64,000 bases of DNA from Oscillatoriales cyanobacterium M59_W2019_021 (GCA_015295945.1 DVED01000085.1:1-64000), one strand, 5' to 3'. Shown: positions 5,521 to 63,965, counted from the first letter of the stretch. The notes: generated from the sequence alone by a model not told the origin. Program-made: numbers and translations.

Positions 5521-5667
5521 TGGTTAGTGGTGAGTTGTTGGTCATTTGAGGTTTGGGATTGGGTAGGATGCGTTAAGCAACGCATCATTTTAATAGAGTT
5601 GCTAGTTGCTTTTCTCCCCCTGCCTCCCCGGCTTCCCCTGCTCAAGAAAGCTCAAGACTGCTCCTCC
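5521..5667. repeat. composite intergenic repeat with hairpin
   Basis: Contains TTAGTGGTTAGTGGT, then GGTCATTTG and GGTTTGGGATTGG blocks, a perfect hairpin GATGCGTTaagcAACGCATC near 5567-5586, and a CCCCTGCTCAAGAAAGCT module, ending in CTCC just ahead of the DUF3370 ATG. The same modules recur ahead of other genes. Confidence 0.65.
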
Positions 5668-7095
5668 ATGAAATTCCCTCAATTCTTACTCGCCGGAATC
5701 TTCCTCGCTGGAGGGACGATCGCCTGTCGTCCCCTGCATATTTCGATTCCCGCACCCGATCCCAATGCCGCAGCAGAACCGCCTAGGATGGCGACCCCAA
5801 ATAATCGGGATATCGTCCGATCGAACCAGGTGCGATCGTTACCGGGACAGTTGGACGACACCCCCATGTTTAACAGCAACAGTCCGGAATGGGTGAAAAC
5901 CGAGGGAATTTTACTGTCTACTTTTCCCCCAGAAGGCAAACAAGTTCCCGCAGCGCATTTAAACTTTCCCTTCGACGGAGATTTTACGATCTTCGCCCAC
6001 CATTTCACCCACACTCCCCCCGATCTCAAAACCCTCTACATCGGCATTCTCGTCCGCAATCCCGGCAAGCAACCCGTAACCCTGTCTATCTTTGAAGCGG
6101 CGAGTTATTTAATGGAACCCGACGCGCCATTTAAGCAACAAGAACCGATGTTAGATAATCCCAACGGCGACATTTTTTCGGGTCCCGGAATTCGCGCCGT
6201 GGATAACGTCTTACGGGGTCGGCGATTGGAGGATTTTCCCGCGCAAATTGTCATCCCGCCGGGGCAAAGTCGAATGCTGATGAATTTACCGATTCCCGTC
6301 CGCAATTTGCCCGAACCCATTAACGGGCGATCGAGTTTTATTCACCTCGCCAGTCGCGGACAAGTTTACGTCGCAAGTTTAGCAATGTATGCCCAAAAAA
6401 ATGACGACGGAACCGAACGCGCCCCCACCTTAGAAGAATGGCAAAACGTGTTAGATAAAGGGGGATTGGCAGGACCGCGCGATCGCGTGCCAACCCCGCC
6501 AAATCAAACGGGAGGATCGCTGGTTTACGGTCGCGTAGCTGGGGTGCAACAAGGATCGCGCTGGCAAGCCAATTTAACCGATGAAGCGAGTGATCGCCTC
6601 ACCCTTCCCACGGTCGATCGTCCCATTTCTTATGTTATCAGTACCTTGCGTGGCGGCAGATTGGGAACGCCACAACTTCAAGCTGCACCGATGCAAGTTC
6701 GCTATCCGGATACTGCCTACGAATCCCACGGAAACTATGGCGTTCGCTACGATTTAAAGCTACCTTTATTTAACGATACCGATCGAACTCAAAAAGTTGC
6801 TATTAAGTTAGAAACACCGATCAAAGAAGACCAACTGTCCCAAGGGGGATTGCGCTTCCGGCAACCTCCGCTAGATTTTCCCTTTTTCCGGGGAACGGTA
6901 CGTTTGAGTACGATGAAAGGGGAAGAACGATCAGCAATGCGTTACATCCATTTATGGCATCGTCAGGGTCAAGTTATCGAACCTTTGGAAACTGTAGAAA
7001 TCGCACCCCAAGAAGTGCGATTGCTCCGTTTGGAATTTCTCTATCCCCCCGATTCGGTTCCACCCCAAGTTTTGACGATCGAAACGGTAAAATAA
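5668..7095 (+). CDS. DUF3370 lipoprotein
   Basis: Conserved cyanobacterial DUF3370 protein, 475 residues. Starting at ATG 5668 gives a short hydrophobic signal ending GGTIAC, a plausible lipobox, so it is probably anchored to a membrane by a lipidated Cys20. The mature part starts with a proline/alanine-rich linker followed by the family signature (IVRSNQVRSLPGQLDDTPMF and GILLSTFPPEGK). No catalytic motif is evident; a periplasmic structural or binding role is possible but unproven. The longer frame from 5527 runs through repeat sequence and is rejected. Confidence 0.8.
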   Translation: MKFPQFLLAGIFLAGGTIACRPLHISIPAPDPNAAAEPPRMATPNNRDIVRSNQVRSLPGQLDDTPMFNSNSPEWVKTEGILLSTFPPEGKQVPAAHLNFPFDGDFTIFAHHFTHTPPDLKTLYIGILVRNPGKQPVTLSIFEAASYLMEPDAPFKQQEPMLDNPNGDIFSGPGIRAVDNVLRGRRLEDFPAQIVIPPGQSRMLMNLPIPVRNLPEPINGRSSFIHLASRGQVYVASLAMYAQKNDDGTERAPTLEEWQNVLDKGGLAGPRDRVPTPPNQTGGSLVYGRVAGVQQGSRWQANLTDEASDRLTLPTVDRPISYVISTLRGGRLGTPQLQAAPMQVRYPDTAYESHGNYGVRYDLKLPLFNDTDRTQKVAIKLETPIKEDQLSQGGLRFRQPPLDFPFFRGTVRLSTMKGEERSAMRYIHLWHRQGQVIEPLETVEIAPQEVRLLRLEFLYPPDSVPPQVLTIETVK

Positions 7096-7147
7096 TTGAC
7101 GTAGCTCGGGGTTAGGTGGGCGAATGGAATTCACGCCGACAGAAGCA

Positions 7148-7226
7148 AAGTCCGCCGACGCGGACTCATCAATTCCTTAACCCGTGCAGGCGGGTTTCGC
7201 TCCTGTAGTTGCGGTTTCAACCGCCA
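7148..7226. repeat. array of three short hairpins
   Basis: Three adjacent perfect stem-loops: GTCCGCcgacGCGGAC, AACCCGtgcagGCGGGTT and GCGGTTtcAACCGC. They lie between the DUF3370 gene and the acetyltransferase. They look like a dispersed palindromic repeat family and may also end transcription of the DUF3370 gene, although no U-tract follows. Confidence 0.6.
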
Positions 7227-7269
7227 TTGTGTTGAGGGGACTTTCATTGAATACTAAGATTAGATACGC

Positions 7270-7902
7270 ATGACCCAAAACTATCCCGATTCGACACAAA
7301 TTCACCCTATTCCCGCCCACCCTCGGGTGTGTTTCCTGAAAAATGTGGTGAAATCTCCCAATATTATCGTTGGAGATTATACGTACTACGACGATCCGAT
7401 GGAACCAGAAAATTTCGAGCGCAACGTGTTATATCACTTCGGCACCGATCGCCTGATTATCGGCAAATTTTGCGCGATCGCCACGGGAGTAAAATTCATC
7501 ATGAATGGCGCCAACCACAGTTTAGAAGGAATCTCTACCTATCCTTTCCCCATCTTTGGTGCGGGTTGGGAAGGGGAAATGGATAAACTAATGAATTTAC
7601 CCGATCGCGGCGATACGGTGGTCGGTCACGATGTTTGGTTGGGATACGAATCGATCGTGATGCCGGGAGTGAAAATTGGCAATGGGGCGATCGTCGCTGC
7701 CAAATCGGTCGTCGTTAAAGACGTTCCTGCTTATACCATTGTGGGAGGAAATCCAGCCCAACTTATCAAACAACGGTTCGGCGATGAGGAGATCGCTTTA
7801 CTAGAACAGATAGCTTGGTGGGATTGGGATCTCGATAAAATGACTCGCAATCTTCCCTACATCATGGGGAACGACGTGCGAGCTTTGTGTCAAGCAAAAT
7901 AA
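7270..7902 (+). CDS. Vat/CatB-type hexapeptide O-acetyltransferase
   Basis: 210-residue left-handed beta-helix acyltransferase of the xenobiotic acetyltransferase (Vat/CatB) group, which uses acetyl-CoA to acetylate hydroxyl groups. Hallmarks are the N-terminal NIIVGDYTYYDDP, the helix coil IGKFCAIATGVKFI, the catalytic His in NGANHSLEG, a loop YPFPIFGAGW, and the repeated hexapeptides from about 115 to 160 (VVGHDVWLGYESIVMPGVKIG). Length matches streptogramin A acetyltransferases, but chromosomal homologues of this type are common and usually of unknown substrate, so resistance should not be assumed. Confidence 0.85.
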   Translation: MTQNYPDSTQIHPIPAHPRVCFLKNVVKSPNIIVGDYTYYDDPMEPENFERNVLYHFGTDRLIIGKFCAIATGVKFIMNGANHSLEGISTYPFPIFGAGWEGEMDKLMNLPDRGDTVVGHDVWLGYESIVMPGVKIGNGAIVAAKSVVVKDVPAYTIVGGNPAQLIKQRFGDEEIALLEQIAWWDWDLDKMTRNLPYIMGNDVRALCQAK

Positions 7903-8154
7903 ATGAAAACGAACTCATATTCGTAGCGAAGCCGAACGTGTTGACACTCCCCGCTAAATGCGAGACGGGGATTCTTGGTTCGTCGCGATGCCGTTAGTTG
8001 GGTAACGTTAGTACGGGTTAAGCAAAACCCTATATTCCTTGTTGTTGATGGGGTTGGGAGTTTGAGGATTTTAGATTTTAGGAGATTTTAGATTTGGGGT
8101 GGGGATCTATGACCCCTAACGGGTTACGCTAGCTCAGCGCATGGCGCTTAGCTA
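7903..8154. other. intergenic region with repeat fragments
   Basis: Together with the following terminator this makes a gene-free stretch of about 320 bases. It holds a possible IS200/IS605 end (7941-7980), T/G-rich filler near 8040-8100 (GGGGTTGGGAG and TTTTAGATTT repeats) and a GC-rich palindromic piece near 8120-8150 (TAGCTCAGCGCATGGCGCTTAGCTA). No open reading frame is convincing. Confidence 0.5.
7941..7980. mobile_element. possible IS200/IS605-type terminal hairpin
   Basis: The segment TTGACACTCCCCG, an A-rich 12-base loop, then CGGGGATTCTTGGTT matches in layout the subterminal hairpin that flanks cyanobacterial IS200/IS605 elements encoding TnpB. Arms TCCCCG and CGGGGA pair. No transposase or TnpB frame is next to it, so this is at most a solo end or relic. 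The call rests on memory of the pattern, not on a search. Confidence 0.4.
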
Positions 8155-8188
8155 TATCCCAAAAAAAATCCCCTCGGGAGAGGGGAAG
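8155..8188 (-). terminator. rho-independent terminator of the PEP-CTERM gene
   Basis: Read on the minus strand, the stem CCCCTC with loop TCCC and GAGGGG is followed by A and eight T residues, starting about 40 bases past the stop codon of the gene at 8226. A strong canonical terminator. Confidence 0.85.
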
Positions 8189-8225
8189 CACATGTCAATA
8201 GCTTGGCGAAAAATCGATCGCTGGC

Positions 8226-12295: not shown

Positions 12296-12328
12296 ACTTT
12301 CATCACGCCATCCGGCTTGCTAATTTTG

Positions 12329-15547: not shown

Positions 15548-15720
15548 GAACCCGTCTGATGTCTAGTGGTGGTATTCCTGCTGACGACTGGGCCGCCGAT
15601 GGTCTTGGGGACTTAAAACTTATCGATCGCCCGTTCCCAGATCCCGAATATGCCGCTACAATACGATCTAGATGGCGCTGCGGCGTTGGTGACTGCCAAT
15701 ATTGTTTTGTGATCTACAAT

Positions 15721-15901
15721 CATCCTGTATATGGGAATTAGCAAGCGTTGCGCGGCAGTAGACCGAGCACGTACTCGGAAACTTCAAGCGCGAAGCCAAG
15801 ATGCCCACTTGATATATGCAGGTCAAAAACTGAGGTAAGACGGCGTTGCGGTGAATCTTTTCTATTAGCCTCCTTTGTCTGCGGACACAGGGGGCTTTAA
15901 A
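15721..15901 (+). ncRNA. candidate structured small RNA, possibly 6S-like
   Basis: Roughly 180 bases ending in a clear terminator hairpin with no protein gene that could own it. A TACAAT -10-like element (15715-15720) precedes it; another lies at 15657-15662. Inside is a nested stem: GCGCG (about 15752) pairing with CGCG (about 15789), enclosing CCGAG-CACGTA-CTCGG. Size, terminal structure and solitary position fit a 6S-like or other housekeeping RNA, but I cannot confirm the family from sequence alone. The 5-prime end is a guess. Confidence 0.4.
15867..15901 (+). terminator. rho-independent terminator of the candidate RNA
   Basis: AGCCTCCTTTGTC pairs with GACACAGGGGGCT around loop TGCG (one mismatch, one G-U), followed by TTAAATT. 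It points in the plus direction and no plus-strand gene lies upstream within the window for several kilobases. Confidence 0.7.
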
Positions 15902-16197
15902 TTGGTTATTGGTCATTAGTCATTGGTCATTTGGGGAGTTGCTAGTTGCGCTTTCGCATTCACGATCTCCGTGTCTCCGTGTCCCCCCTTCCCCTGCCTT
16001 ACAGGTGTAGGTTTTTGACAATCAAGTGAGTGTGGACTAACGATCGGGTAATTCAGAGCGTGACGGCAACGAAAATTCAAAGGTTTTGCTTCCCCGGCTC
16101 CCCCTGCTTCCTCCTGAACTCCTTCTAAATAGGTTGCGATCGCCTCCTCCTCAACGGTAGGATAGTAGACCTGACCTCATGCACTCCGGGAATCCCC

Positions 16198-19085: not shown

Positions 19086-21245
19086 ATGGGCAAACTACTC
19101 AAGCAACGAACGACACAAATCGCACTGGTACTGCTTCTGGGACTGGGGGCGCTGTTGACAGGGGCGGGCATTTCTGTCTGGCGGCGGGGGAGCGAACGGC
19201 AAGCGACAATTCCAGAACCCGACCCTAGCGATGCTAAAATCGCTGCCGTGCTGTTGCTGCCGCCAGAGGAACAGAAACCGGCTTTAGAAGAATTGGCAAA
19301 CGGGGGATCTTCGATCGATCGCCATCGCGCCCGGTATCTCTTAGCCGTGAATGCGATCGCCCAAAAACAGGGAGAGGTAGCTCTCGAACAGTTAAACGGG
19401 TTAGAAAAAGAGTATCCCGTTTTGGGGGGTTATATCTTACTCCAACGCGCCCGCGCGTACGAGCTTTTGGGCGATGCCAGTCAGGCACAAGCGACCTACC
19501 AGCAATTGGCGGAGAACTACGGGGAAGAACCCGTGGCGGCTGAAGCTTTATTCGCTCTGAGCAAAACCGATCCCCAATCCGGACAAGCGGCGATCGAAAA
19601 ATTTCCCCTCCATCCGCGCACCGCAGAAATTGCCCGCCAAAAACTGGCAGCCAATCCGGATGCCGAAACCCGTAAAGCTTTGCTGCTGTTACTGGCACAG
19701 CATTTGTATTTAGAGGATATCGGCAATCTCTTGGCGCAGTTGGGAAATCGCTACGGCACGACGCTGACCCCCCAAGATTGGGAAACCATCGCCTTTGGTT
19801 ACTGGGAAAAACAGGATTACAAAAACGCCGGAAAAGCTTACGCTAAAGCGCCGCGCACCCCGCAAAATCTCTATCGTACGGGGCGGGGATTGCAACTGGG
19901 GGGAGCCAACACAGAAGCGAAAACGGCGTACCGACAAGTGGTCGCTGCCTATCCGGAGACAGAGGAAGGGGGTCTGGCGTTGCTGCGGTTAGCGCGGTTG
20001 TCGAACGATCGCGAAGCCATCCCTTACCTCGATCGCCTGATTGCTAACTTTCCCGACCTCGCCGCCGAAGCGCTCTTAGATAAATCAAAAATTCTCGATC
20101 GCCTCGGGAGCGAAAAATCGGCAACGCAAGCTCGCCAATCCATTCTCCACCAGTACGGCAACTCCGACTCCGCCGCCGAACTGCGCTATACTACCGCCCA
20201 AGGACTCGCCCAAGCGGGTCAGTACCAAGAAGCGTGGAAGTGGGCGGAGCAAATTATCAAGGAAAATCCCCAAAGCGAATACGCCCCCGAAGCGGGATTT
20301 TGGGTGGGCAAATGGGCGCAAGCGCTCGATAAAATGCCCAAAGCCAAACAAGCGTTTGAATACGTGGTTGCCAACTATCCCCAATCCTACTACGCTTGGC
20401 GTTCTGCCGTGTATTTGGGCTGGGATGTGGGCGATTTCACCACCGTGCGCCAACTCTCCCCCACCGTGGAAAAATTGAACGATCGCCTGGTTCCCCCGGC
20501 CGGTTCGGAAACGATAAAAGAATTGTACGCCCTCGGGCAAGATCGCGACGCTTGGACGCAGTGGCACGTGGAATTTACCAACCGGATAGAACCCAGCTTT
20601 GAGGAACAGCTTACCGATGGGATGATGCGGATGGGGGTTGGCGATACCCTCGACGGGATTTTCATGTTGTCCAATCTTGCCGATCGCGACGATCCCGAGG
20701 ATAAAGCCAAATACGAGGCGATCGCCCAACAACCTGCGTATTGGGAAACCTTATATCCGTTTCCTTACTTCGATCTGATTCTCTACTGGTCGGCGAAGCG
20801 CCAAATCAACCCGTTGATGACGATCTCCCTGATCCGCCAAGAATCGCGCTTTATGCCCTCGATTCGATCAGTTGCCGGTGCCGTGGGATTGATGCAAGTT
20901 CTACCGGAAACGGGAGCTTGGATTGCCGAGAAAGCCAACGAACCCCCCCCGAAGGATTTGACCGATCCCAACGATAATATTCGGCTGGGAACGCTGTATT
21001 TAGACTACACCCACGATACGTATAACGATAACTCTCTCTTTGCGATCGCCAGCTACAACGCCGGACCCGGCAACGTCGATGACTGGAAGCAACGTTTCCG
21101 CTTCGACGATCCCGATGTCTTTGCCAAACAAATTCCCTTCCCGGAAACTAACGACTATATCAGTTCCGTGTTTGGTAATTACTGGAATTACTTGCGACTG
21201 TACAACCCGCAAGTCAAGCAACAAATCGACACGCTGAAGCGGTAG
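19086..21245 (+). CDS. Slt-type lytic transglycosylase
   Basis: 719 residues. An N-terminal membrane anchor/signal (about 12-30) is followed by a long superhelical region of TPR-like helix pairs (about 60-520) and a C-terminal SLT domain of the goose-lysozyme fold (about 560-700). Catalytic Glu lies in SLIRQESRFMPS; further SLT motifs AVGLMQVLPETG, LGTLYLDY and IASYNAGPGNV are present. Family enzymes cleave peptidoglycan between MurNAc and GlcNAc, releasing 1,6-anhydro products in the periplasm. Length is slightly above E. coli Slt70. Monocistronic in appearance. Confidence 0.93.
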   Translation: MGKLLKQRTTQIALVLLLGLGALLTGAGISVWRRGSERQATIPEPDPSDAKIAAVLLLPPEEQKPALEELANGGSSIDRHRARYLLAVNAIAQKQGEVALEQLNGLEKEYPVLGGYILLQRARAYELLGDASQAQATYQQLAENYGEEPVAAEALFALSKTDPQSGQAAIEKFPLHPRTAEIARQKLAANPDAETRKALLLLLAQHLYLEDIGNLLAQLGNRYGTTLTPQDWETIAFGYWEKQDYKNAGKAYAKAPRTPQNLYRTGRGLQLGGANTEAKTAYRQVVAAYPETEEGGLALLRLARLSNDREAIPYLDRLIANFPDLAAEALLDKSKILDRLGSEKSATQARQSILHQYGNSDSAAELRYTTAQGLAQAGQYQEAWKWAEQIIKENPQSEYAPEAGFWVGKWAQALDKMPKAKQAFEYVVANYPQSYYAWRSAVYLGWDVGDFTTVRQLSPTVEKLNDRLVPPAGSETIKELYALGQDRDAWTQWHVEFTNRIEPSFEEQLTDGMMRMGVGDTLDGIFMLSNLADRDDPEDKAKYEAIAQQPAYWETLYPFPYFDLILYWSAKRQINPLMTISLIRQESRFMPSIRSVAGAVGLMQVLPETGAWIAEKANEPPPKDLTDPNDNIRLGTLYLDYTHDTYNDNSLFAIASYNAGPGNVDDWKQRFRFDDPDVFAKQIPFPETNDYISSVFGNYWNYLRLYNPQVKQQIDTLKR

Positions 21246-21345
21246 GGATGGGTAATTGGTAATTGGTAATTAGCAAACATCTTCTCCCCCTGCTCAAGAA
21301 AGCTCCCCCTGCTTAAGAAAGCTCTCTTTCTCCCGAACTCCTGCC
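21246..21345. repeat. composite intergenic repeat
   Basis: GGTAATTGGTAATTGGTAATTAGCAAAC, then CTCCCCCTGCTCAAGAAAGCTCCCCCTGCTTAAGAAAGCT and CCCGAACTCCTGCC directly before the Uma2 start. It shows the recurrent module order in compact form. Confidence 0.7.
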
Positions 21346-21951
21346 ATGACCTATACCTCTACAAAACCCCTCACCGTTGGCGAATTCATCGCCCAATATG
21401 GCGACAACCCTCGCTACGAACTCGCCGATGGAGAACCGATCGACATGGAACCCACAGGTCCCCACGAAACCGTTAGCGGTAAACTCACCGTCCGCATCGG
21501 CATGGCGATTCTCAACGAGAGACTCCCCTGGTTTATTCCCCGCACTTGCCTGATTCAACCTTTTGCCGATGTTGCCACCGCTCGCCGTCCCGATATCGTC
21601 GTTCTTGACGAGACGATGTTGGCAAGCGAACCCCTGTGGCAGCGAGAACCCGTCATTACTTTGGGTCGTTCCATCAAATTGGTTGTAGAAGTGGTTAGCA
21701 CTAACTGGGAAACCGATTACGCTCGCAAAGTGGAAGAATACGCACTCCTGGGTATCCCCGAATACTGGATTGTCGATTTTCGGGGTCTTGGTGGTGTTGC
21801 CTTTATCGGCAAACCCAAACAACCCACCTTCACCGTCTGTCAATTGGATGGAGACGAGTATCGCCAACAACAATATCGATCGGGAGAAGCAATTTCGTCG
21901 CCGCTTTTCCCCGATTTACAATTGCGCTTGGACGACATTCTCCCTCGATAA
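21346..21951 (+). CDS. Uma2 family (DUF820) endonuclease-like protein
   Basis: 201 residues. Restriction-endonuclease-like fold of the Uma2/DUF820 family, greatly expanded in cyanobacteria. The fold residues are visible: LTVGEFIAQYGDNPRYELADGEPIDMEPTG, the PD-like RRPDIVVLDE strand, the catalytic-type VVEVVSTNWETDY strand, KVEEYALLGIPEYWIVD, and PDLQLRLDDI at the end. The real activity and targets of these proteins are unsettled. A second copy lies at 60035. It is flanked by repeat filler, consistent with a mobile or recently moved gene. Confidence 0.85.
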   Translation: MTYTSTKPLTVGEFIAQYGDNPRYELADGEPIDMEPTGPHETVSGKLTVRIGMAILNERLPWFIPRTCLIQPFADVATARRPDIVVLDETMLASEPLWQREPVITLGRSIKLVVEVVSTNWETDYARKVEEYALLGIPEYWIVDFRGLGGVAFIGKPKQPTFTVCQLDGDEYRQQQYRSGEAISSPLFPDLQLRLDDILPR

Positions 21952-25204: not shown

Positions 25205-25380
25205 ATCGGTCATTTGGGGTTTGTCATTTACCATTTGGGGTTTGGGGTTGGTTATTAGTTATTGGCAAACATTTTCTTCCCCTGCTTCCCCTGCTCCCCC
25301 TGCTCAAGAAAGCTCCCCCTGCTCTCTTCCTCCTGTAGGCGAGAAGAGTGCGCAGCACTTACTCCTGAACTCCTATCTTA
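25205..25380. repeat. composite intergenic repeat
   Basis: Ordered modules: GGTCATTTGGGGTTTGTCATTT, TTTGGGGTTTGGGGTTGG, TTATTAGTTATTGGCAAAC, CCCCTGCTTCCCCTGCTCCCCCTGCTCAAGAAAGCT, CTCCTGTAGGCGAG and CTTACTCCTGAACTCC. This is the fullest example of the filler in the window. With the kinase leader it makes a gene-free stretch of about 300 bases. Confidence 0.75.
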
Positions 25381-29512: not shown

Positions 29513-30835
29513 ATGAACCCAAATTCAACTTCATCTACTGCCGAAATTGCCAACTCGGAAATTTTGATCGTTGACGATACGCCGAACAATCTGCGTTTGT
29601 TATCGGATATGTTGAGCGATCGGGGCTACGAAGTTCGCAAGGCGATCGACGGTCAGATGGCGCTGACTTCCGCAAGAGTCGATCCGCCGGATTTGATCTT
29701 ACTCGATATCGTCATGCCGGATATCGACGGCTATCAGGTTTGCCAAAAGCTCAAATCCGATGCCAAAACCCGGCAAATTCCCGTGATCTTTTTGAGCGCC
29801 CTCGACGATCCCCTCGATAAAGTCAAGGCGTTTCAGGTGGGAGGGATCGACTATATTACCAAGCCGTTCCAAATTGAAGAAGTCTTAGTGCGGGTTCGCA
29901 GTCAGTTGACCCTGCGCTATTTAACCCAGAATTTAGAAGCGCAAGTGGCAAAGCGCACGGCAGAACTGACCCAGGCTTTACACGATCTCCAAGAGGCTCA
30001 ACTGCAAATCGTGCAAGCGGAAAAAATGGCAACTCTCGGTCAACTCGTCTCGGGAATCGCCCACGAAATCAACAATCCCATTGGGTTTATCGAAGGCAAT
30101 TTAACGTTAGTCGATAAGGGGGTCAATCATTTACTCGAACACCTCCAACTCTATCAAAAATTCGTGCCAAATCCCAGTCCGGAAATCGAAGCCAGTGCCG
30201 AACAGATTGAATTAGAGTATTTGGTGGAAGAACTTCCCGAGATGCTCGAGTCGATGAAACTCGGAACCGATCGCATTCGCCAATTGAGCGTTTCTTTACG
30301 GAAGTTTTCTCGCCGTGACGATCGCCGCCAAGTTGCCGCCAACCTTCACGACGGGATTGACAGTACCCTCGTGATTTTGAAACATCGCCTCAAAGCCAAC
30401 AAATATCGACCGGAAATTCAAATTATCAAAAAATATGGGAATCTTCCCCCCGTCAAATGCTATCCCAACCAACTCAATCAGGTATTTATGAACCTGTTAG
30501 CCAATAGTATCGATGCCATCGATGAGTTGGGAGAAGGGCGTTCTTATGCCGAGATGGAGAAAGGATCGCACCACATCTCGATTCGCACGGGGATCTCACC
30601 CGATCGCACCAAAGTGGCGATCGAAATTGCCGATAACGGACCGGGAATGCCACCGGAAGTGCGCGAGAGAATCTTCGATCGGCTCTACACCACCAAACCG
30701 CCCGGAAAAGGAATGGGTTTGGGATTGTCGATTTCTCACCAAATTGTCACCGAGAAACACCACGGTCGCCTGCGATGCAGTTCTACCCTCGGTGAAGGCA
30801 CGAAATTTACGATCGAAATCCCGGTAGAATCGTAA
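29513..30835 (+). CDS. response regulator-histidine kinase fusion
   Basis: 440 residues from ATG 29513 (an alternative start at 29468). N-terminal receiver (about 12-130): acidic pair DD in ILIVDDTPNN, phosphoacceptor Asp in LLDIVMPDIDG, and Lys in DYITKPF. A coiled linker (RTAELTQALHDLQEAQLQIVQAEKM) leads to the DHp His in VSGIAHEINNP and a HATPase domain (NLLANSIDAIDE, IADNGPGMPP, GKGMGLGLS). This receiver-first arrangement relays a signal from an upstream kinase, plausibly the hybrid kinase just before it (gap about 190 bases, same strand). The output is unknown. Confidence 0.88.
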   Translation: MNPNSTSSTAEIANSEILIVDDTPNNLRLLSDMLSDRGYEVRKAIDGQMALTSARVDPPDLILLDIVMPDIDGYQVCQKLKSDAKTRQIPVIFLSALDDPLDKVKAFQVGGIDYITKPFQIEEVLVRVRSQLTLRYLTQNLEAQVAKRTAELTQALHDLQEAQLQIVQAEKMATLGQLVSGIAHEINNPIGFIEGNLTLVDKGVNHLLEHLQLYQKFVPNPSPEIEASAEQIELEYLVEELPEMLESMKLGTDRIRQLSVSLRKFSRRDDRRQVAANLHDGIDSTLVILKHRLKANKYRPEIQIIKKYGNLPPVKCYPNQLNQVFMNLLANSIDAIDELGEGRSYAEMEKGSHHISIRTGISPDRTKVAIEIADNGPGMPPEVRERIFDRLYTTKPPGKGMGLGLSISHQIVTEKHHGRLRCSSTLGEGTKFTIEIPVES

Positions 30836-30837
30836 TT

Positions 30838-30996
30838 GGTCATTTGTCCTTTGTCATTTGGGGTTGGAATAAGAAGGCAGATGGCAGAAGGAATGATAAG
30901 GGGTTGCTGTCTACTCATCAGATCGCTTCTTCTCCCCCAGTTCCCCAGGCTCCCCCAGATCCTCTTCCTCCCGAAGTCCCGAACTCTTTTCTTTGC
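30838..30996. repeat. composite intergenic repeat before lpxB
   Basis: GGTCATTTGTCCTTTGTCATTTGGGGTTGG, AAGGCAGATGGCAGAAGG, then CTTCTCCCCCAGTTCCCCAGGCTCCCCCAG and CCCGAAGTCCCGAACTC up to the lpxB start. It contains the source-like copy of the modules found inside the hybrid kinase gene. Confidence 0.65.
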
Positions 30997-32184
30997 ATGA
31001 CATTCAGCCAAAATTCCTCCGAGAACCCGCTTCAAATTTTTATCGCCACGGGGGAAGTGTCTGGAGATCTGCAAGGGGCGCTATTGGTGCGGGCGTTGTA
31101 CCGTCAAGCTAAGGAAATCGGGCGATCGGTGCAAATTACCGCGTTGGGGGGAGAGCGGATGATGCGGGCGGGGGCGTCGCTGTTGGGCAATACCAGCGAA
31201 ATCGGGGCAGTGGGATTGTTGGAATCGCTGCCGTTTATCTTGCCGACTTGGCGAATCCAACGGCGGGCGCGGCGTTATTTGCAGCAATACCCGCCGGATT
31301 TGGTGGTGTGTATCGATTATATGGGACCCAACCTCAGTTTGGGGGCGTATTTGCGGCGGCATTTACCCTACGTCCCGATCTCCTACTATATCGCGCCGCA
31401 AGCGTGGGTTTGGTCGATTAGTCCCCAAAATACTGCCCGGATTGTAGAGATGAGCGATCGCCTGCTGGCGATTTTTCCCGAGGAAGCCCGATTTTTTGCA
31501 GAACGGGGGGCAAAGGTAACGTGGGTGGGTCATCCGTTGGTAGATTTGATGCGAGATGCCCCCACTCGCTCGGCCGCGAGGGCGCAGTTGGGGATTGCAG
31601 AGGGGACGATCGCCGTAGCCTTGCTGCCCGCCTCTCGCCACCAGGAAATTCGAGCGTTGATGCCCGTCATCTTCCAAGCGGCGCAACGGTTGCAAGCGAA
31701 AATCCCCGAGGTGCGGTTTTGGATTCCCCTATCCCTGGAAGCCTATCGAGGAGCGATCGCACGGGGGATTGCCCGATACGGATTGCGGGCGACAGTGGTG
31801 GGAAAACATACACAAACGGTACTGGTGGCGGCAGATTTAGCCATCGGTAAGTCGGGAACGGTGAATTTAGAATTGGCGTTGCTGAACGTGCCGCAGGTGG
31901 TGGTGTATCGGGTGAATCCGGTGACGGCATGGATTGCTCGAAAAGTGTTGGGATTTAAGATTCCCTTCATGTCGCCGCCGAATTTGGTGCAGATGAAACC
32001 GATCGTCCCGGAGTTGTTGCAGGAAGAAGCTACCCCCGATCGCATCGTCGCCGAAGCGTTAGCCTTACTGTGCGATCCCCAACGGCGCGATCGCCTGCTG
32101 GAAGGGTACGCCGAAATGCGCCAATGTCTCGGCGAAGTGGGAGTTGGAGATCGGGCAGCACGGGCGATTTTAGACTTACTCTAA
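30997..32184 (+). CDS. lpxB: lipid-A-disaccharide synthase
   Basis: 395 residues. Condenses UDP-diacylglucosamine with lipid X in outer-membrane lipid A synthesis, at the inner membrane. GT-B-type glycosyltransferase family 19 features: IFIATGEVSGDLQGALL at the start, GGERMMRAG, the VCIDYMGPN stretch, the HPLVDLM motif, LLPASRHQEIRALMP and the C-terminal SGTVNLELALLNVPQVVVYR. I start at ATG 30997; the longer frame from 30844 reads through repeats. It stands apart from other lpx genes. Confidence 0.92.
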   Translation: MTFSQNSSENPLQIFIATGEVSGDLQGALLVRALYRQAKEIGRSVQITALGGERMMRAGASLLGNTSEIGAVGLLESLPFILPTWRIQRRARRYLQQYPPDLVVCIDYMGPNLSLGAYLRRHLPYVPISYYIAPQAWVWSISPQNTARIVEMSDRLLAIFPEEARFFAERGAKVTWVGHPLVDLMRDAPTRSAARAQLGIAEGTIAVALLPASRHQEIRALMPVIFQAAQRLQAKIPEVRFWIPLSLEAYRGAIARGIARYGLRATVVGKHTQTVLVAADLAIGKSGTVNLELALLNVPQVVVYRVNPVTAWIARKVLGFKIPFMSPPNLVQMKPIVPELLQEEATPDRIVAEALALLCDPQRRDRLLEGYAEMRQCLGEVGVGDRAARAILDLL

Positions 32185-33110: not shown

Positions 33111-33548
33111 TTGGATTTACCGTCTTTTATCTGGTTGTGGCGCATTGCCGCCTGGTCTATGGGCTTCTCGTTGCTGATGTACGTGTTACTAGCAGTAACG
33201 GGAGGTTCGCTCTTTTGGCACCGTCAAGCCCAGCAGCCCCGACCCCGTTGGTGGCGCTCATTGCATATCGCGTTCGGGTCGATTCTTGTCGGACTAGTTT
33301 TGCTCTTGCTAGCCGTCGGCATTATTGGCACGTTGGGGCATTTCGGCAGCTTGGGTCACTCCCCACACCTGTTTGCCGGATTAACCGTCGTCGCCCTCGT
33401 TTTGATTTCCGCCGCCAGTGCCACCCAAATTCATCCCCGACACCCTTGGGTGCGCCACCTCCACATCGGCACGAATATTGCCCTACTCGGTGCGTTGGCT
33501 TGGGTATTGCTCACGGGTTGGGTCGTGGTCCAGAAATATTTACCGTAA
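33111..33548 (+). CDS. DUF4079 membrane protein
   Basis: 145 residues with four predicted membrane helices (about 11-33, 48-73, 80-100, 115-138) and several conserved-type histidines at helix ends (WRSLHIAFGS, GHFGSLGHSPHLFAG, RHLHIGTN). The His pattern recalls cytochrome b561-like haem-binding bundles, which would make it a possible electron carrier, but that is inference. The start is TTG 33111: no ATG or GTG lies between it and the upstream in-frame stop at 33063, and the first helix begins at once. The next in-frame ATG (33159) would cut that helix. Confidence 0.78.
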   Translation: MDLPSFIWLWRIAAWSMGFSLLMYVLLAVTGGSLFWHRQAQQPRPRWWRSLHIAFGSILVGLVLLLLAVGIIGTLGHFGSLGHSPHLFAGLTVVALVLISAASATQIHPRHPWVRHLHIGTNIALLGALAWVLLTGWVVVQKYLP

Positions 33549-33615
33549 GGGGTAATGGGTAATGGGTAATTGACCAACCCCAAACCCCAAATGACCAATG
33601 ACCAATGACCAACCC
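33549..33615. repeat. GGGTAATGGGTAATT and TGACCAA repeat block
   Basis: GGGGTAATGGGTAATGGGTAATTGACC, two AACCCCA heptads and (AATGACC) times four fill the whole space between two convergent genes. Confidence 0.8.
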
Positions 33616-34707
33616 TTAAAACGAAATCGTCAGGAATTGATTCTGGAATTTCGCTCCGGTCACGGGTCTGCCGCGCAACTCCGGCGGGAGGAAAATATTG
33701 CGACGCTGATCTCCGGCTTCGATCGTGATTTCCGGTCCCGATTGAATCAGTTTGACTTGCTTTTTCTCGAATCCCGGCAAGAACAAGCGCACTTGTTTTT
33801 GGGGAATATCGATTTCTAAGGGCTTGGGAACGGTGGTGGCTTGTCTGACATCGGGGATGGCTGCCATCAGGGGTTGCCAGTCGTCGCCGACTTGGGTGGG
33901 AACGGCGGAGACCGATAAAGGAGCAAATTCGGCGGCGAGTGCCGAGGCATCGTTCGATCGATTGACGATAACGCCCCCCACGGTCAAACCCGCTTGTTGG
34001 GAGCATCCCCAGCGATACTTGGCGGTAGCGATAGCGGCGGGGGATTCCGTTGTCACCAAAAATGCGGCAACTCGGTTGGGGTCGGCAAGTGCCGCTTTGC
34101 CGCTTTCGAGCATATCGTTAAATTTATTCTTGTTCGACCAATCGTCCGGCGCCCAATCGACGTTGAGGATGGCGCTGCTGATGGGTTGGAAGAAGGGGTT
34201 TAAGGCTTTGACGATATCGGAACCTTCCAAGACTTGGCGGAAGCGGCGAAAATACCAACTGGCAATTTCGGCACTGCCCAACATCCGCAGGGTTTCGCGA
34301 TCGTCGGCGCCATCGTACACTAAGACATCGTAGTTGCCCGAGTCGTCGTACAAGCGCAACTCGTTGAGGGCGAGGACGGCATCCATTCCCGGCAGTACCG
34401 CCAGTTCTTCCCCGTAAATTTCTTTAAAGAAGGGCGTGCGCACGTATTCCGCTTCCAGTTTTTTCACTTCCGTCCATCCTTTTTCCAGGAGATGGGGGGA
34501 TTGCAACTGCACGGCGTGGAGGTTGGGGGCAATTTCCGTGGGTTCCAAGCCGATCGCCATTCCGGTTAGGATACTGAAGGCGGGACTGGCATCGCGATCG
34601 GCAAATAGGACTCGCTTGCCCTGACTTGCCAGTTGTTTGGCGGCGGCGAGGGCAACGGTGGTACGCCCAGTACCGCCTTTTCCGAGAAAGGTAAGAATCA
34701 AAGCCAT
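33616..34707 (-). CDS. ArsA/Get3-like ATPase
   Basis: 363 residues. P-loop NTPase of the ArsA/Get3 branch of the SIMIBI class with deviant Walker A GKGGTGRTT (signature first Lys plus P-loop Lys/Arg), ADRDASPAF switch region, DVLVYDGADDRETLRML (Walker B-like), and a C-terminal small domain (about 290-363) with beta-rich pattern (VRLFLPGFEKKQVKLIQSGPEITIEAGDQRRNIFLPP). Cyanobacterial copies of this type are of unknown role; client-protein targeting or metal handling are the family precedents. It lacks the second P-loop domain of bacterial ArsA. A repeat-filled spacer follows. Confidence 0.82.
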   Translation of the reverse strand: MALILTFLGKGGTGRTTVALAAAKQLASQGKRVLFADRDASPAFSILTGMAIGLEPTEIAPNLHAVQLQSPHLLEKGWTEVKKLEAEYVRTPFFKEIYGEELAVLPGMDAVLALNELRLYDDSGNYDVLVYDGADDRETLRMLGSAEIASWYFRRFRQVLEGSDIVKALNPFFQPISSAILNVDWAPDDWSNKNKFNDMLESGKAALADPNRVAAFLVTTESPAAIATAKYRWGCSQQAGLTVGGVIVNRSNDASALAAEFAPLSVSAVPTQVGDDWQPLMAAIPDVRQATTVPKPLEIDIPQKQVRLFLPGFEKKQVKLIQSGPEITIEAGDQRRNIFLPPELRGRPVTGAKFQNQFLTISF

Positions 34708-34724
34708 GATTGAATGTTAGTGCA

Positions 34725-34870
34725 GGAGTTGCAGGAGTTCAGGAGTTCAGGAGTTCAGGAGTTGCAGGAGTTTCAGGATTGGGAAAAAGGCAAAATTAAA
34801 ACTTAAAAATGCACGCTCCCACACGAACTTCTGTAGGCGCTCGTGAGCGCGAAGCCCTTACTCCTGAACT
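34725..34870. repeat. CAGGAGTT tandem repeat block
   Basis: GCAGGAGTT and TCAGGAGTT units repeated six or seven times at 34728-34775, then TTCTGTAGGCGCTCGTGAGCGCGAAGC and CCTTACTCCTGAACTTC at 34830-34873. The last module recurs at 25337-25376. It lies between the ArsA-like gene and petP. Confidence 0.7.
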
Positions 34871-38053: not shown

Positions 38054-38179
38054 TGGTCTTTTGTCCTTTGTCCTTCGTTGGGGTTTGGGGTTGGGAGTTT
38101 GGGGCTTGTTTTTTCGGTTTTTGTCATCGGTCATTCGTGCAAATGACGAATGACGAATGACGAATGACAAATGACGCGA
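38054..38179. repeat. composite repeat between zwf and opcA
   Basis: TTTTGTCCTTTGTCCTT, GGGGTTTGGGGTTGGGAGTTTGGGG, and (AATGACG) times five. It separates two genes that are normally close, so it probably entered the operon. Confidence 0.75.
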
Positions 38180-43904: not shown

Positions 43905-44650
43905 CAGCAAAGACTACCCCCTTACGAGAGCTTCCCGCCGATCTCGATCGCGAACGCCTACCCCGTCACGTTGCCGCGATCATGGACGGCAACGGACGCT
44001 GGGCAAAATCGCGAGGACTTCCCCGGATTATGGGACACCAGCGCGGTGTCGATGCCCTGAAAAATTTGCTGCGCTGTTGCGATGATTGGGGAGTGAAAGC
44101 ACTGACTGCCTATGCCTTTTCTACGGAAAATTGGGGCAGACCCTTAGAAGAAGTGGATTTTTTGATGACGTTATTCGAGCGGGTATTGCGGCAACAACTC
44201 CAGGAAATGATGGCAGAAAATGTCCGCATCCGATTTGTGGGTAATTTGAAAACGCTACCGGCTTCTTTGCAGGCAGAAATCGATCGATCGATGGAAATGA
44301 CTGCCGAAAATTCGGGAATCGAATTTACGGTTGCCACCAATTACGGAGGACGCCAAGAAATTCTGGAAGCGTGCCGCTCGATCGCCACCCAAGTGCGAGA
44401 CGGGAAACTGCAACCGGAAGATATCGACGAAGCGCTCTTCAAACGCCATCTGTATACGGCAAATATCGGCGATCCCGATTTGCTGATCCGCACCAGCGGG
44501 GAAATGCGAATTAGTAACTTCTTATTGTGGCAAGTGGCGTATGCAGAATTGTACGTCACTGAAACCCTTTGGCCCGACTTTGATCGCGCGGAGTTTCATC
44601 GAGCTTTATCGGCCTATCAAAAGCGCGATCGGCGTTTTGGAAAGGTGTAA
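43901..44650 (+). CDS. uppS: isoprenyl (undecaprenyl) diphosphate synthase
   Basis: 249 residues, cis-prenyltransferase making the lipid carrier for peptidoglycan and glycans. Motifs: [20 protein letters not shown] with catalytic Asp and phosphate-binding residues, [14 protein letters not shown], and the C-terminal [18 protein letters not shown]. Coupled to cdaA by overlap. The downstream spacer is filler. Confidence 0.96.
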
Positions 44651-44741
44651 TTTGGGGTTTGGAGTTTGGGGTTTGTTAATGGTTAGTTGTTTCTCTTCCC
44701 CGGCTTCCCCCGCTCCCCCTGCTCTGTACACTAGTCGCGGG
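44651..44741. repeat. TTTGGGG and CCCCGGCTTCCCC repeat block
   Basis: TTTGGGGTTTGGAGTTTGGGGTTTG, TTAATGGTTAGTTG, then CTTCCCCGGCTTCCCCCGCTCCCCCTGCT fills the space between two convergent genes. Confidence 0.75.
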
Positions 44742-45723: not shown

Positions 45724-45782
45724 TAGTAATAAGTAATAAGTGGTTTCTTCCCAATTACCGATTACCGATTACCCATTACCCA

Positions 45783-46187
45783 TTACGGCACGATCAACAC
45801 CGGACAGGGAGAGAGACTGATCACCCGATTAGTGACGCTATCGGCTGCGCCATCGTCGGTTAACCCCAACCCCCGCGTCCCCATGACGATTAAATCGGCT
45901 TCGATTTCGTCGGCAACATCGCAAATGGTAAACGAGGGTTTTCCTTGGCGTTCGATCGCTTCGGTTTCGATGCCTTGTTGGGCGAATAAATTGCGAACGG
46001 TTTCTAGAAGTTTGGCGATCGCTTCGGGGGAATTCATGGGGTCGGGTGGGGTGTCGGGTTCGGCGGGTTCGACGACAGAAACCACCACCAAGCGACTGTC
46101 GCAGGTTTTCACCAGCTTGGTCACCGTGTCGATCGCGTCGCGAGCCTCTCGGCTGCCATCCAAAGCAAATAAAACGGTTTTAAACAT
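45783..46187 (-). CDS. universal stress protein (UspA family)
   Basis: 134 residues, single Usp domain of the nucleotide-binding alpha/beta type. FKTVLFALDGSREARDAI at the start, VVVSVVEPAEPD, and the ATP-binding motif region LIVMGTRGLGLTDDGAADSV near the end, where the usual GS after the G-X9 spacer is replaced by AD. Good Shine-Dalgarno GGAGGG before ATG 46187. Role in stress response by family only. Confidence 0.9.
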   Translation of the reverse strand: MFKTVLFALDGSREARDAIDTVTKLVKTCDSRLVVVSVVEPAEPDTPPDPMNSPEAIAKLLETVRNLFAQQGIETEAIERQGKPSFTICDVADEIEADLIVMGTRGLGLTDDGAADSVTNRVISLSPCPVLIVP

Positions 46188-58350: not shown

Positions 58351-58404
58351 GGATGAAGTTGCTCGAACTTGGGGAAGACTAAAGTCAACGATCGTTGGGC
58401 AAGA

Positions 58405-58426: not shown

Positions 58427-58450
58427 GGGAGAATCACCGAACCGCTCCAT

Positions 58451-60739: not shown

Positions 60740-60752
60740 AGCCAACCCAACT

Positions 60753-60940
60753 CGAACAATACCGTCAGTGGCTTCAATCCATCTTGCAATGTCTACGGTG
60801 ACATGACGACCTTTCCCGTCTTAGATACCGTTCGAGACCATTATCAAGTTGTTAGCATCGGCTGGAAAAATCGCTGTTGCTTTTTGGGCTTTCTCATCCA
60901 CCTTACAGTTTTCGATGTGATTTTTGGGGAGATGAATTGA
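60753..60940 (+). pseudogene. remnant of an xisI-type gene
   Basis: After Uma2, one frame reads LEQYRQWLQSILQ then a stop; a second frame (60798-60940) continues YGDMTTFPVLDTVRDHYQVV, SIGWKNRCCFLGFLIHLTVF and ends at a TGA inside the 3-prime end of mscS. Order and motifs match XisI (fdxN element excision controlling factor family), with the central RDHYQxxSxGW and GxLIH segments. The N-terminal start and C-terminal third are gone. XisI-like genes are common near XisH and Uma2-type genes in cyanobacteria. Confidence 0.6.
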
Positions 60941-62009
60941 TCGAGTAACCCCTGGGAAATCGAAATGGAGGATCGCCTTGTTCGGGAACGTAACCCGATC
61001 GGATGGGAAAGGGAAGTTCGATATTTTCCAGGCGATATCTCCGGTGCAGGCGCTTGATAAATTCGTGGCGGACGATTAAATGGTCGTAAAATTCCTTAAT
61101 TTTTAAATAAATAATAAAATTAATGCTGAAATAGCCAAAATCGCGATACCGAATCAACGGGTCGTAGTCGGGAACGCCGCCGGGCACTTCTGCCATCACT
61201 TCTCGAGCGACTTCCAGCGTCACCGCTTCTACTCGTTCCAAATCGCTCTCGTAGCTGACCCCCACTTCCAAGGGTAACAGCATCGATCGCTCGGGTAAAG
61301 TATAGTTTTTCAGGGTGGAAGAAACGATCTTCGAGTTGGGAATGACGATTAAATTTCCCGGAATATCCCGAATCACCGTATACCGCCACGCCACATCGGT
61401 CACGTACCCTTCTTCGTCGGGTTCTAGTTGAATGTAGTCCCCCGGTCGAACTTTTTTGGAGAGAATGATATTCAGCCCAGAAAATAAGTTGGAAAGGGTA
61501 TTTTGCAGCGCCAAACCGATGGAAACTCCCCCAATCCCCAAGGCGGTTAGCAACGGCGTAATCGAAATGCCTAAAGACTGGATGATAATCAGAATTCCGA
61601 GACTGAAAATCACCAGTTTGGTAAGATTTTCAAACAGAGAAGTTAGAGGCGAAGTATCCTCTCCCCTGCCACCGTAAAATTGGATAAATCCAACCGCTAA
61701 CCGAGCAATGACGATCGTCGCCGAACCCAGCAAGAGTGCTAGTAATATCTTTTGGAGGAGAATATCCAGCCAAGGTTCTAAGGAAATCGAAAGTGTAGCG
61801 GCAAAAATTCCGGCGATCGCAAACCACAATAGGGTCATGCCGCGCAGGGATGAGAGAATGATGTTATACCCTTGCCATCCCGTACGATCGGCGATCGATT
61901 TCAACCGCTTGAGAACGCGATGCTCGAAAACATACCCCCCCACAAATCCCAACGCCACGAGGGCGATGGGAATCACGATCTTTACAATTTCCAATACGCT
62001 GGCAGTCAT
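60903..62009 (-). CDS. small-conductance mechanosensitive channel (MscS family)
   Basis: 368 residues. Four membrane helices (about 9-27, 55-77, 82-105, 130-150) lead to the pore helix with the Gly/Ala pattern ALGIGGVSIGLALQNTLSNLFSGL, then the cytosolic beta domain (GDYIQLEPDEEGYVTDVAWRYTVIR). It opens on membrane tension to release solutes at hypo-osmotic shock. One helix more than E. coli MscS at the N-terminus. Its 3-prime end overlaps the xisI remnant on the other strand. Confidence 0.9.
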   Translation of the reverse strand: MTASVLEIVKIVIPIALVALGFVGGYVFEHRVLKRLKSIADRTGWQGYNIILSSLRGMTLLWFAIAGIFAATLSISLEPWLDILLQKILLALLLGSATIVIARLAVGFIQFYGGRGEDTSPLTSLFENLTKLVIFSLGILIIIQSLGISITPLLTALGIGGVSIGLALQNTLSNLFSGLNIILSKKVRPGDYIQLEPDEEGYVTDVAWRYTVIRDIPGNLIVIPNSKIVSSTLKNYTLPERSMLLPLEVGVSYESDLERVEAVTLEVAREVMAEVPGGVPDYDPLIRYRDFGYFSINFIIYLKIKEFYDHLIVRHEFIKRLHRRYRLENIELPFPIRSGYVPEQGDPPFRFPRGYSINSSPQKSHRKL

Positions 62010-62017
62010 ATTGAAAT

Positions 62018-62172
62018 GGGTGGTGGGTCATGGGTAATTGAGAAGAAACCACTTATTACTGATTACTAGTACGGGCGAAGCATTCGGGCGATATGTTATT
62101 GGTTTAACCCAAAGATCTCGATCCGAATGCTTCGCCCCTACCCACCCCAAACCCCCAACCCCAAACTCCAAA
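62018..62172. repeat. filler with MITE copy 2
   Basis: GGTAATTGAGAAG and ACTTATTACTGATTAC, then the palindromic element at 62070-62140, then CCACCCCAAACCCCCAACCCCAAACTCC up to the ureA stop. Fills the whole space between ureA and mscS. Confidence 0.7.
62070..62140. mobile_element. palindromic MITE-like repeat, copy 2
   Basis: Perfect terminal repeats CGGGCGAAGCATTCGG and CCGAATGCTTCGCCCC around GGCGATATGTTATTGG, GGTTTAACCC and AAGATCT. The same core is at 45665-45720. About 70 bases, non-coding. Confidence 0.7.
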
Positions 62173-62478
62173 TTACGAATTGATGGGATGGTGAACGGTT
62201 ACTAGTTTAGTACCATCGGGAAACGTGGCTTCGACTTGTACGTCCGGAATCATTTCTGGCACACCTTCCATCACGTCATCGCGGGTGAGTAAGGTCGTGC
62301 CGTATGCCATCAAATCGGCAACGGTTCGCCCTTCTCTCGCCCCTTCCAATATTTCAGCGGTAATGTAGGCAACCGCTTCGGGATAATTGAGTTTGAGACC
62401 TTTGGCTTTGCGGCGTTCGGCTAACAACGCCGCTGTAAAAATTAGAAGTTTGTCTTTTTCTTGCGGTGAAAGTTGCAT
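62173..62478 (-). CDS. ureA: urease gamma subunit
   Basis: 101 residues, normal UreA length ([65 protein letters not shown]). Structural subunit of the nickel urease that turns urea into ammonia and CO2. ATG 62478 lies 8 bases after the ureD stop. No ureB follows: the next gene is mscS beyond filler. Confidence 0.96.
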
Positions 62479-62486
62479 GAGGGTTT

Positions 62487-63302
62487 CTAAAGACGCCAAA
62501 CGCGAGGAACGCACGCTTCCCGACCCCAAACGGACGATCGAACATCGTGCCAGACAGTTGTAAACCAGTTTCGCACGTCCTGGGTCGATCGTCCGCGATA
62601 CCGACATAGTAATCCCTCTTGCAGTCGCGTTACTCCCATTGCCCCAGAACCTTGCCACCACGATCGCGCTTTCTCCACTCTTTCTGCCGAAACGGGTTCT
62701 CCAACCCACGCCAGCGTGCCGACGACGGGATTTCCCCCCAATCCGTGAGGACTCTCAAATCGGGTTTCGCTGGCGGGAAAGTATTGGCGATCGATCCATA
62801 ACGGTACGCCATCGCGCCACACTTCTAAGTTCGATCGCCATTCTCCACTGACAAATCGTTCTCCCCTTGCCGTTCGACCGAATCGGACGATTTCCCATCC
62901 CATCCAACTCGCCTTCGGTGCTAATTCAATCTGTAAATCTTGCCGATAGATTGCTTCGTTAAAAACGATCGTCTCTTGCGGCAACCATTCTAAAACCGCA
63001 CCTTCCTCGATATCGATCCGGACGGTTTGCCGTGCCTGTAAACCATTGCTGCGATAAATTTTACTGGCGGCGGCAGTGGTGGCAAGAACTTGCGCGTGGG
63101 GTTGGAGACGGATATTCTGCACTAATCGATCGCCCCCAACAATCCCCCCCGCCGTATGCAACACTACGGTATGACAAACTGACTCCCCCTCCGGATAGAA
63201 CGATCGCTGTACCTTCAACGGTGCTTGTACTCGACTTTCGGCGAGCGTGGTTTTCTCTTCCCGGCGATCATACGTTAAATCAAGTTTACCTTGCCAACCC
63301 AT
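62487..63302 (-). CDS. ureD: urease accessory protein UreD
   Basis: 271 residues, scaffold of the UreDFG complex needed to load nickel into urease. [29 protein letters not shown], the conserved [12 protein letters not shown] segment and [16 protein letters not shown] are clear. Upstream of and co-directional with ureA, a common ureD-ureA order in cyanobacteria. Just 62 bases from the neighbouring peroxiredoxin stop. Confidence 0.95.
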
Positions 63303-63364
63303 TTTAAGTAATAAGTAATAAGTTTGAGGTTGGTTATTGGTTATTGGTTGTTGGTGAATTCCAA
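63303..63364. repeat. AAGTAATAAGT and GGTTATTGG repeat block
   Basis: TAAGTAATAAGTAATAAGTTTGAGG then GGTTATTGGTTATTGGTTGTTGGTG and AATTACCCGTTACC, filling the space between ureD and the peroxiredoxin gene. It also runs into the last codons of the latter. Confidence 0.75.
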
Positions 63365-63910
63365 TTACCCGTTACCTATTACCCATTTCAACAACGTTTC
63401 TACCGACGCATTGGGTTCTAGGAAAGAAAATAAATGCTTGTAGATCAGTTTTCCAGACCGATCAAGGACGAATTGAGCGGGTAAGGGCGCTCCCAAAGCT
63501 TGACCGACTTGATAGGCTTTGAACACCCGACAACTGGGATCGCTGAGTAAGGGGAATTTTAAACCCAAATCCCGGACGACGATTTGGCTTTGGCGGGGAT
63601 CGGTACTGGTTATCATCAAGACTTCGGCTCCCGCTTCGAGAAAGCGATCGTAATTCTCGTTCAATGCTTTGATGTGGGGAAAGCACAAGGGACAGTATTG
63701 CTTTTCAGTAAAAATACGGGTGAAGGCGATAACAACGGATTTTTGTCCTCGATAAGTCGAGAGCCGAACTTGGCGAGCATTTGTCAAATCGCTCAACTCG
63801 AAATCCGGCGGCATCACTTCCCGGTACAGTTTGTTCGTTGCTGGAATCGGTAAGAAGTTTTTGAAAAACCGTTCGTTAAATAATCCTCGAAAATCTGTGG
63901 ATGTTAGCAT
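63365..63910 (-). CDS. peroxiredoxin-like (AhpC/TSA) protein
   Basis: 181 residues, thioredoxin-fold redoxin of the AhpC/TSA group. Cys73 and Cys76 in TEKQYCPLC form a CxxC rather than the single peroxidatic Cys of classical 2-Cys enzymes, so a bacterioferritin-comigratory or atypical type is likely. LITSTDPRQSQIVVRDLGL and FPLLSDPSC are family features. ATG 63910 is used since the frame above lies in repeats. The last codons (VIGNG) are read from a TTACCCATT repeat. Confidence 0.82.
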   Translation of the reverse strand: MLTSTDFRGLFNERFFKNFLPIPATNKLYREVMPPDFELSDLTNARQVRLSTYRGQKSVVIAFTRIFTEKQYCPLCFPHIKALNENYDRFLEAGAEVLMITSTDPRQSQIVVRDLGLKFPLLSDPSCRVFKAYQVGQALGAPLPAQFVLDRSGKLIYKHLFSFLEPNASVETLLKWVIGNG

Positions 63911-63965
63911 AATTGGGTAATGGTTAATGGGTAATGGGTCGCGAACCACTAACAACTAAAAATCA
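63911..63965. repeat. GGGTAATGG and CACTAACAAC repeat block
   Basis: AATTGGGTAATGGTTAATGGGTAATGGG then ACCACTAACAACTAAAAATC ahead of the peroxiredoxin gene. Confidence 0.65.

Follow-up and report, generated by a model that had tools for sequence, protein, structure and literature searches.

The window analysed here is a stretch of 64,000 nucleotides, bases 1-64000 of contig 174, from a draft genome of 4.99 Mb in 212 contigs. The source is a cyanobacterium, as seen from the very high frequency of HIP1, GCGATCGC (2018 matches on both strands of 1.1 Mb), and from the best named match of one of its proteins, a Leptolyngbyaceae record with 59% identity. Genes were called with a hexamer model of our own, which is cruder for starts than for stops, and an Rfam search of the window yielded a 6S RNA gene and one tRNA and nothing else. 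Many of the spacers are composed of short modules, whose patterns were defined post hoc, after inspection of the data. The modules are A (TAATTGG, TCATTGG or TTAGTGG) and H (TTTGGGG), which together are the dominant heptad units of the source genome, K (GGCAAACA), the pyrimidine unit P (CCCCTGCT), Q (CAAGAAAGCT) and the octamer E (CTGAACTCC).

An earlier note had described nine stretches of the window as the same modules in the same order, a description that suits six of them, two essentially complete and four partial. The modules stand in order on one strand, and the series is all but complete at 21246-21345 and 25205-25380. The former (+ strand) extends from the stop of gene 19086-21245 to the start of gene 21346-21951, of the Uma2 family, with three TAATTGG units, the linker AGCAAACATCTTCTC, CCCCTGCT/CAAGAAAGCT twice and CTCCCGAACTCC; the latter (+), in the gap between divergent genes, carries GGTCATT/TTTGGGG heptads, TTATTGGCAAAC, four copies of CCCCTGCT with CAAGAAAGCT, a hairpin insert (TAGGCG...GCACTTA) and then CTCCTGAACTCC. 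In some of the partial mosaics (5521-5667, 15902-16135, 30838-30996 and 44651-44741) TCCTGAACTCC is absent or degenerate. Read from the stop codon, the first of these occupies 5518..5667 (+), where the stop TAG of gene 4891-5520 is unit 1 of TAGTGGT TAGTGGT, followed by degenerate heptads, the inverted repeat GATGCGTT...AACGCATC and CCCCTGCC/CCCCGGCT/CCCCTGCTCAAGAAAGCT. A dispersed inverted repeat, GGATGCGTT...AACGCATC, lies inside this mosaic at 5567-5594. At 30833..30996 (+) the array TAATTGG TCATTTG TCCTTTG TCATTTG begins with the stop TAA as unit 1, and degenerate units, CCCCCAG pyrimidine units and an CCCGAACTC element lead to an LpxB-family gene at 30997. Behind uppS, at 44648..44741 (+), unit 1 of the array TAATTTG GGGTTTG GAGTTTG GGGTTTG is likewise the TAA stop, and the linker GTTAGTTGTTTCTCT, CCCCGGCT, CCCCCGCT and CCCCTGCT follow. 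The mosaic at 15902..16135 (+) starts 44 bases past the 6S RNA gene (15672-15858, + strand; Rfam RF00013, 85 bits) and not behind an ORF, so that a stop codon is not required at every locus; it consists of TTGGTTA/TTGGTCA heptads, TTTGGGG, pyrimidine units, an unrelated stretch, CCCCGGCT/CCCCTGCT and TCCTGAACTCC.

The description fails at the other three stretches (33549-33615, 38054-38179 and 62018-62172), which, when read directly, are devoid of CCCCTGCT, CAAGAAAGCT and TCCTGAACTCC and are inverted pairs, with a G-rich heptad run opposite a C-rich run. In the convergent spacer at 33546..33615 (+), the series TAAGGGG TAATGGG TAATGGG TAATTGA has the TAA stop of the DUF4079 gene as its unit 1, and CCCCAAA/TGACCAA heptads are read out of an ArsA-type ATPase gene on the opposite side. 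The zwf-opcA spacer (38054..38179, - strand) is made of heptads throughout, GTCATTC/GTCATTT in the sense direction after the zwf stop and CCCCAAA/AAGGACA up to the opcA ATG, and the pyrimidine block is absent. At 62018..62172, to which no strand was assigned, GGGTCAT/GGGTAAT heptads stand opposite CCCCAAA heptads. A dispersed inverted repeat, CGGGCGAAGCATTCG...CGAATGCTTCGCCC (62070-62140), is located between these opposed runs. Two further arrays lie on the minus strand: CTCCTGAA-type octamers in the sense direction at 34708..34783, preceding the start of gene 33616-34707 (-), and TAATGGG TAATGGG TAATCGG TAATCGG TAATTGG at 45730..45785, after gene 45783-46187 (-), where the stop codon is again unit 1.

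The modules are far more abundant than chance would provide. A heptad array is present in 9 of the 49 window spacers, the mean of Markov-resampled spacers being 0.02, and CCCC[TC]GCT and TGAACTCC appear in 4 and 3 of the 49 (resampled expectations 0.56 and 0.28, respectively). About 1.49 Mb of the source genome was examined, together with smaller parts of the genomes of relatives; the contigs were chosen in part for carrying a module, and absolute densities may therefore be high, while this choice should have little effect on order, strand and phase. Among 969 sampled genome spacers, the heptad array is found in 188 versus 1 in resampled sequence, CCCC[TC]GCT in 97 versus 13 and TGAACTCC in 57 versus 7.4. 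Genome-wide, there are 360 matches to TTTGGGGTTTGGGG in the source and 0-4 in each of 58 relatives, the reversed pattern being unusable as a control because it is itself a heptad repeat; CCCCTGCTCAAGAAAGCT has 150 matches at no more than 1 mismatch, and its reversed control has 0. Low complexity is thus ruled out as an account of the modules, in agreement with the earlier note, and both modules and heptads are spread over many contigs. G-quadruplex motifs number 100 on the spacer strands, compared to 8-25 in resampled spacers, and by this motif count the heptads should be capable of forming G-quadruplexes.

The order of the modules is kept while copy number varies. Between same-strand neighbours in the sampled source spacers, A precedes P in 39:0 cases, A precedes K in 12:0, K precedes P in 14:0, P precedes E in 14:0 and H precedes P in 17:3; A and H alternate with each other, as do P and Q. 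A random order, which would have refuted the earlier note, is rejected by these counts. The polar order does not imply a single orientation relative to transcription, which is likewise rejected: between co-directional genes, 29 heptad-to-pyrimidine mosaics are sense and 24 antisense. Heptads and pyrimidine units therefore occur in either direction, and the octamer CTCCTGAA, sense-biased upstream of starts, is the sole module biased to one strand. Relative to the adjacent gene, the heptads are G-rich when read outward, at ends and starts alike; arrays of lag 7 with G exceeding C prevail by 72:18 behind stops and by 59:6 when read outward from starts.

Arrays frequently share the phase of their own gene's stop codon, a part of the layout that we did not find described. 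In a motif-free test of 1106 genes, in which recurrence of the stop triplet was counted at each lag, 74 genes have it again at +7 and 51 at +14, most other lags giving about 17. In G150, a genome of another family, it recurs at +7 in 23 of 159 genes (2-8 at most other lags), and in G333 stop anchoring is weak (10 of 186 at +7). The triplet at +7 follows the gene's own stop type: TAA is followed by TAA in 48 of 585 cases and TAG by TAG in 19 of 324, with TAG followed by TAA in 4 of 324. Directly after 854 stops there are 90 arrays of lag 7, 7 of lag 8, 10 of lag 9 and 0 of lags 4-6, and 27 of the 90 lag-7 arrays start no more than 3 bases from the first base of the stop. Seven-base periodicity starts to increase some 10 bases ahead of the stop and is greatest 5-13 bases beyond it, a profile that is a step with no sharp spike and that counts against a model of birth at the stop. 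Start-codon phase is weak (ATG at -7 in 14 of 796, other lags 1-9) and is not claimed.

Phase with the stop could also arise when an ORF runs into a pre-existing array and ends there. Such an event is conceivable at gene 4891-5520, whose orthologues end at variable residues, and could contribute some of the in-phase signal, since 7 of the 29 strict stop-anchored arrays have units upstream within the ORF. As the main cause it is opposed by the 22 of 29 that have no such unit and by three tested genes. The DUF4079, 45783-46187 and uppS proteins have orthologues whose ends lie at the same position or within a few residues of it (exactly there in 12 of 12 relatives for 45783-46187), and this comparison of sequences indicates that the stop did not move at any of the three. 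Different lineages carry different arrays behind the same stop. Behind the stop at 45783, the source has TAATGGG units, G014 has TAGTCAT, G016 has GGACTGG and G017 has TGAGTGC; behind that of uppS, G009 has GGGAACA/GGGAATA and G005 has GGCAAGA. The zwf-opcA spacer is short and without these modules in eight relatives, contains other heptads in G004 and G014, and consists entirely of heptads in the source. Place, period and G-rich direction thus recur across lineages, but the sequence of the unit does not.

Blocks of the mosaic appear to have travelled between loci. Of 80 heptad-to-pyrimidine junctions, 49 share with another locus, at no more than 3 mismatches, the 22 nt that precede the first P (CCCCTGC), a count to which heptad overlap adds; random or letter-shuffled 22-mers gave 0. 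The non-repeat linkers AGTTGCTTCTCTC, CAAACATCTTCTC and TCACTGTTTTCTC recur exactly, and together with the shared junctions this supports the copying of blocks. The 6S RNA mosaic also fits copying, because no stop codon seeds an array there.

The earlier note knew of no mechanism that would write such ordered mosaics. The stop phase, the unmoved stops and the shared linkers now point to one with two steps, the best supported of the readings, to which we assign a probability of about 0.55: slippage at the ends of genes would give birth to the heptads, and copying between spacers would follow. Replication slippage at an ORF edge may produce seven-base tandem arrays by tandem duplication. If the duplicated unit starts on the stop codon, the protein would stay as it was, but a unit duplicated within the ORF would shift the frame, seven not being a multiple of three, and would be lost by selection; arrays would consequently abut the gene, and TAA, TAG or TGA may start unit 1. 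Blocks composed of heptads, linker, CCCCTGCT/CAAGAAAGCT and CTCCTGAA would subsequently be copied between spacers as polar units, either by ectopic recombination via shared heptads or by small mobile repeats, whereby the order would be inherited and the copy number would drift by slippage.

A bolder extension is possible, though doubtful. Across cyanobacteria, seven-base G-rich arrays may be born again and again at stop codons, with unrelated lineages independently growing different heptads behind the same unmoved stop, itself unit 1, and a process of translation or of the transcript end, beyond selective tolerance, making the duplications.

It is rather unlikely that the mosaic is a mobile but nonautonomous mini-element, polar and comparable to the small dispersed repeats of Nostoc, that inserts whole beside genes, tandem copy variation being secondary and stop phase being due to ORFs that end in the inserted element. 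The fixed order and the linkers common to several loci would suit it, as would a 26-bp hairpin (by inspection), TAGGCGYAGCCAGTGCGAAGCACTTA, nearly all 17 copies of which lie between CTCCTG-type units; another family has a different, 24-bp hairpin at the equivalent place between CTCCTG units. The small dispersed repeats (SDR) of Elhai and colleagues (2008; cited in PMC4390886) are reportedly hairpins of 21-27 nt embedded in tandem repeats, and the 26-bp insert, at its fixed site in tandem repeats, fits them as far as this description goes. The 18-bp P-Q unit CCCCTGCTCAAGAAAGCT is moreover shared with a genome of a third family, G015, where it occurs twice. Fixed ends or terminal repeats of a mini-element were, however, not found and heptad-only sites are common; the three stops have not moved, most stop-anchored arrays stay outside the ORF, and different arrays occupy the same place in unrelated lineages.

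Two observations concern these inserts themselves. The 26-bp hairpin, found at L010, L020, L024, L027, L029, L036, L052, L056 and other loci, and at 25205-25380 in the window, has CTCCTG on one side and CTCCTGAA on the other in almost every case and keeps a single orientation, which would suit octamer arrays being its target. In G015 (L065, 1430-1560), CCCCTGCT/CAAGAAAGCT units are flanked by direct copies of TTAATACATAATCTTA and inverted repeats of CTCCCTTCCCG beside a likely tRNA, and the whole may be a discrete element with the module as its cargo.

Equally improbable is a selected function, in which transcripts are ended or protected by G-quadruplexes or hairpins of the G-rich RNA that follows stops, a sense stretch of pyrimidine units and CTCCTGAA before starts aids translation, and the order is kept because it is functional. 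The orientation is tied to gene edges, as it is in Nostoc and Xanthomonas (PMC4692102), and the octamer favours such a role: at loci between co-directional genes its sense bias is 22:3 for TCCTGAACTCC or 27:7 for CTGAACTCC, and it is attached to 14 of 29 sense mosaics versus 1 of 24 antisense ones. A strictly strand-fixed octamer is not upheld, since 37:3 per hit weakens to 27:7 (22:3 for the longer form) after hits are merged into loci. Avoidance of Shine-Dalgarno-like sequence is unlikely to underlie the bias, given that antisense CCCCTGCC units (GGAGG-like) are found on the sense strand downstream of stops. Against a function, heptads face outward at starts too and hence follow no transcript-end rule, they are absent from most relatives of the same family, mosaics run in both directions relative to transcription, and the octamer of the other family also lies between convergent genes (9 loci; 8 sense and 2 antisense, not significant).

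Of 390 genomes of the class, 7 contain the octamer CTCCTGAACTCCTGAACTCC: the source (58 copies), two genomes with 1 copy each and four of another family (G270, 80; G401, 43; G150, 28; G333, 9), in which many loci run from G-rich heptads through TTC-rich sequence to the octamer. Additional octamer and heptad families, with arrays of CTTCTGAA, CTCCTGA and CTCGGTGA, are present in another family of the order (L104-L116; G270, G401 and G333). A low-complexity or assembly artefact is hardly credible, for although the assembly is a draft of 212 contigs and the repeats are short, the counts greatly exceed those of resampled sequence, the arrays lie within long contigs with intact conserved genes on either side, and similar arrays occur in the single-contig genomes G333 and G150.

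The repeats are of a kind already known but take an ordered form that is new, and the anchoring rule accounts for part of their layout. The STRR heptanucleotide repeats of filamentous cyanobacteria, reportedly described by Mazel and colleagues in 1990, are said to be short tandem repeats of high copy and variable number. The source heptads, tandem heptamers on many contigs of a genome recognized as cyanobacterial by HIP1 density and one protein match, may belong with them; they differ in being part of an ordered composite with non-heptad modules and in being anchored to gene edges. They are of the kind of the G-quadruplex repeats of Rehm et al. 2015 (PMC4692102), which describes the heptamers GGGGA[CT]T of Nostoc and GGGAATC of Xanthomonas as mostly intergenic, no more than 50 bp from an ORF, located on the coding strand when they follow a stop and on the non-coding strand when they precede a start, and able to form G-quadruplexes in vitro, with no function found. 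Both are seven-base G-rich tandem repeats that are mostly intergenic (lag 7 is dominant in the source, and 188 of 969 spacers contain arrays), and the rule of G-rich sense behind stops and antisense before starts, near the ORF, is common to both (72:18 and 59:6); the outward orientation is thus already known, as published for Nostoc and Xanthomonas. The kind is the same but the units (TTTGGGG, TAATTGG, TCATTGG and TTAGTGG) are different, and, unlike the heptamers there described, those of the source stand first in an ordered mosaic that also contains pyrimidine units and the octamer, and they show a stop-codon phase that the accessible part of PMC4692102 does not describe. The octamer CTCCTGAA may be compared to the TAACTGA direct repeats of MacGregor 2015 (PMC4679880), which lie upstream of starts, are patchy across lineages and were proposed as translational sites in Beggiatoaceae; Cyanothece strains differ there by 7-nt indels, and Microcystis has TAACTGA without fixed orientation. 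The octamer is likewise a short direct repeat upstream of starts and patchy among lineages, yet its unit is not TAACTGA and it stands within a larger mosaic. No report of a stop-codon phase or of this ordered mosaic was found in the literature searched, which lacked most subscription papers.

Cyanobacterial heptamers have been known for decades, and we know of no explanation of where they originate or why they face outward from genes. The stop phase, together with the differing arrays behind the same stop across lineages, provides a testable birth model for these heptamers, and the fixed order of the further modules offers a natural record of the copying of sequence among spacers.
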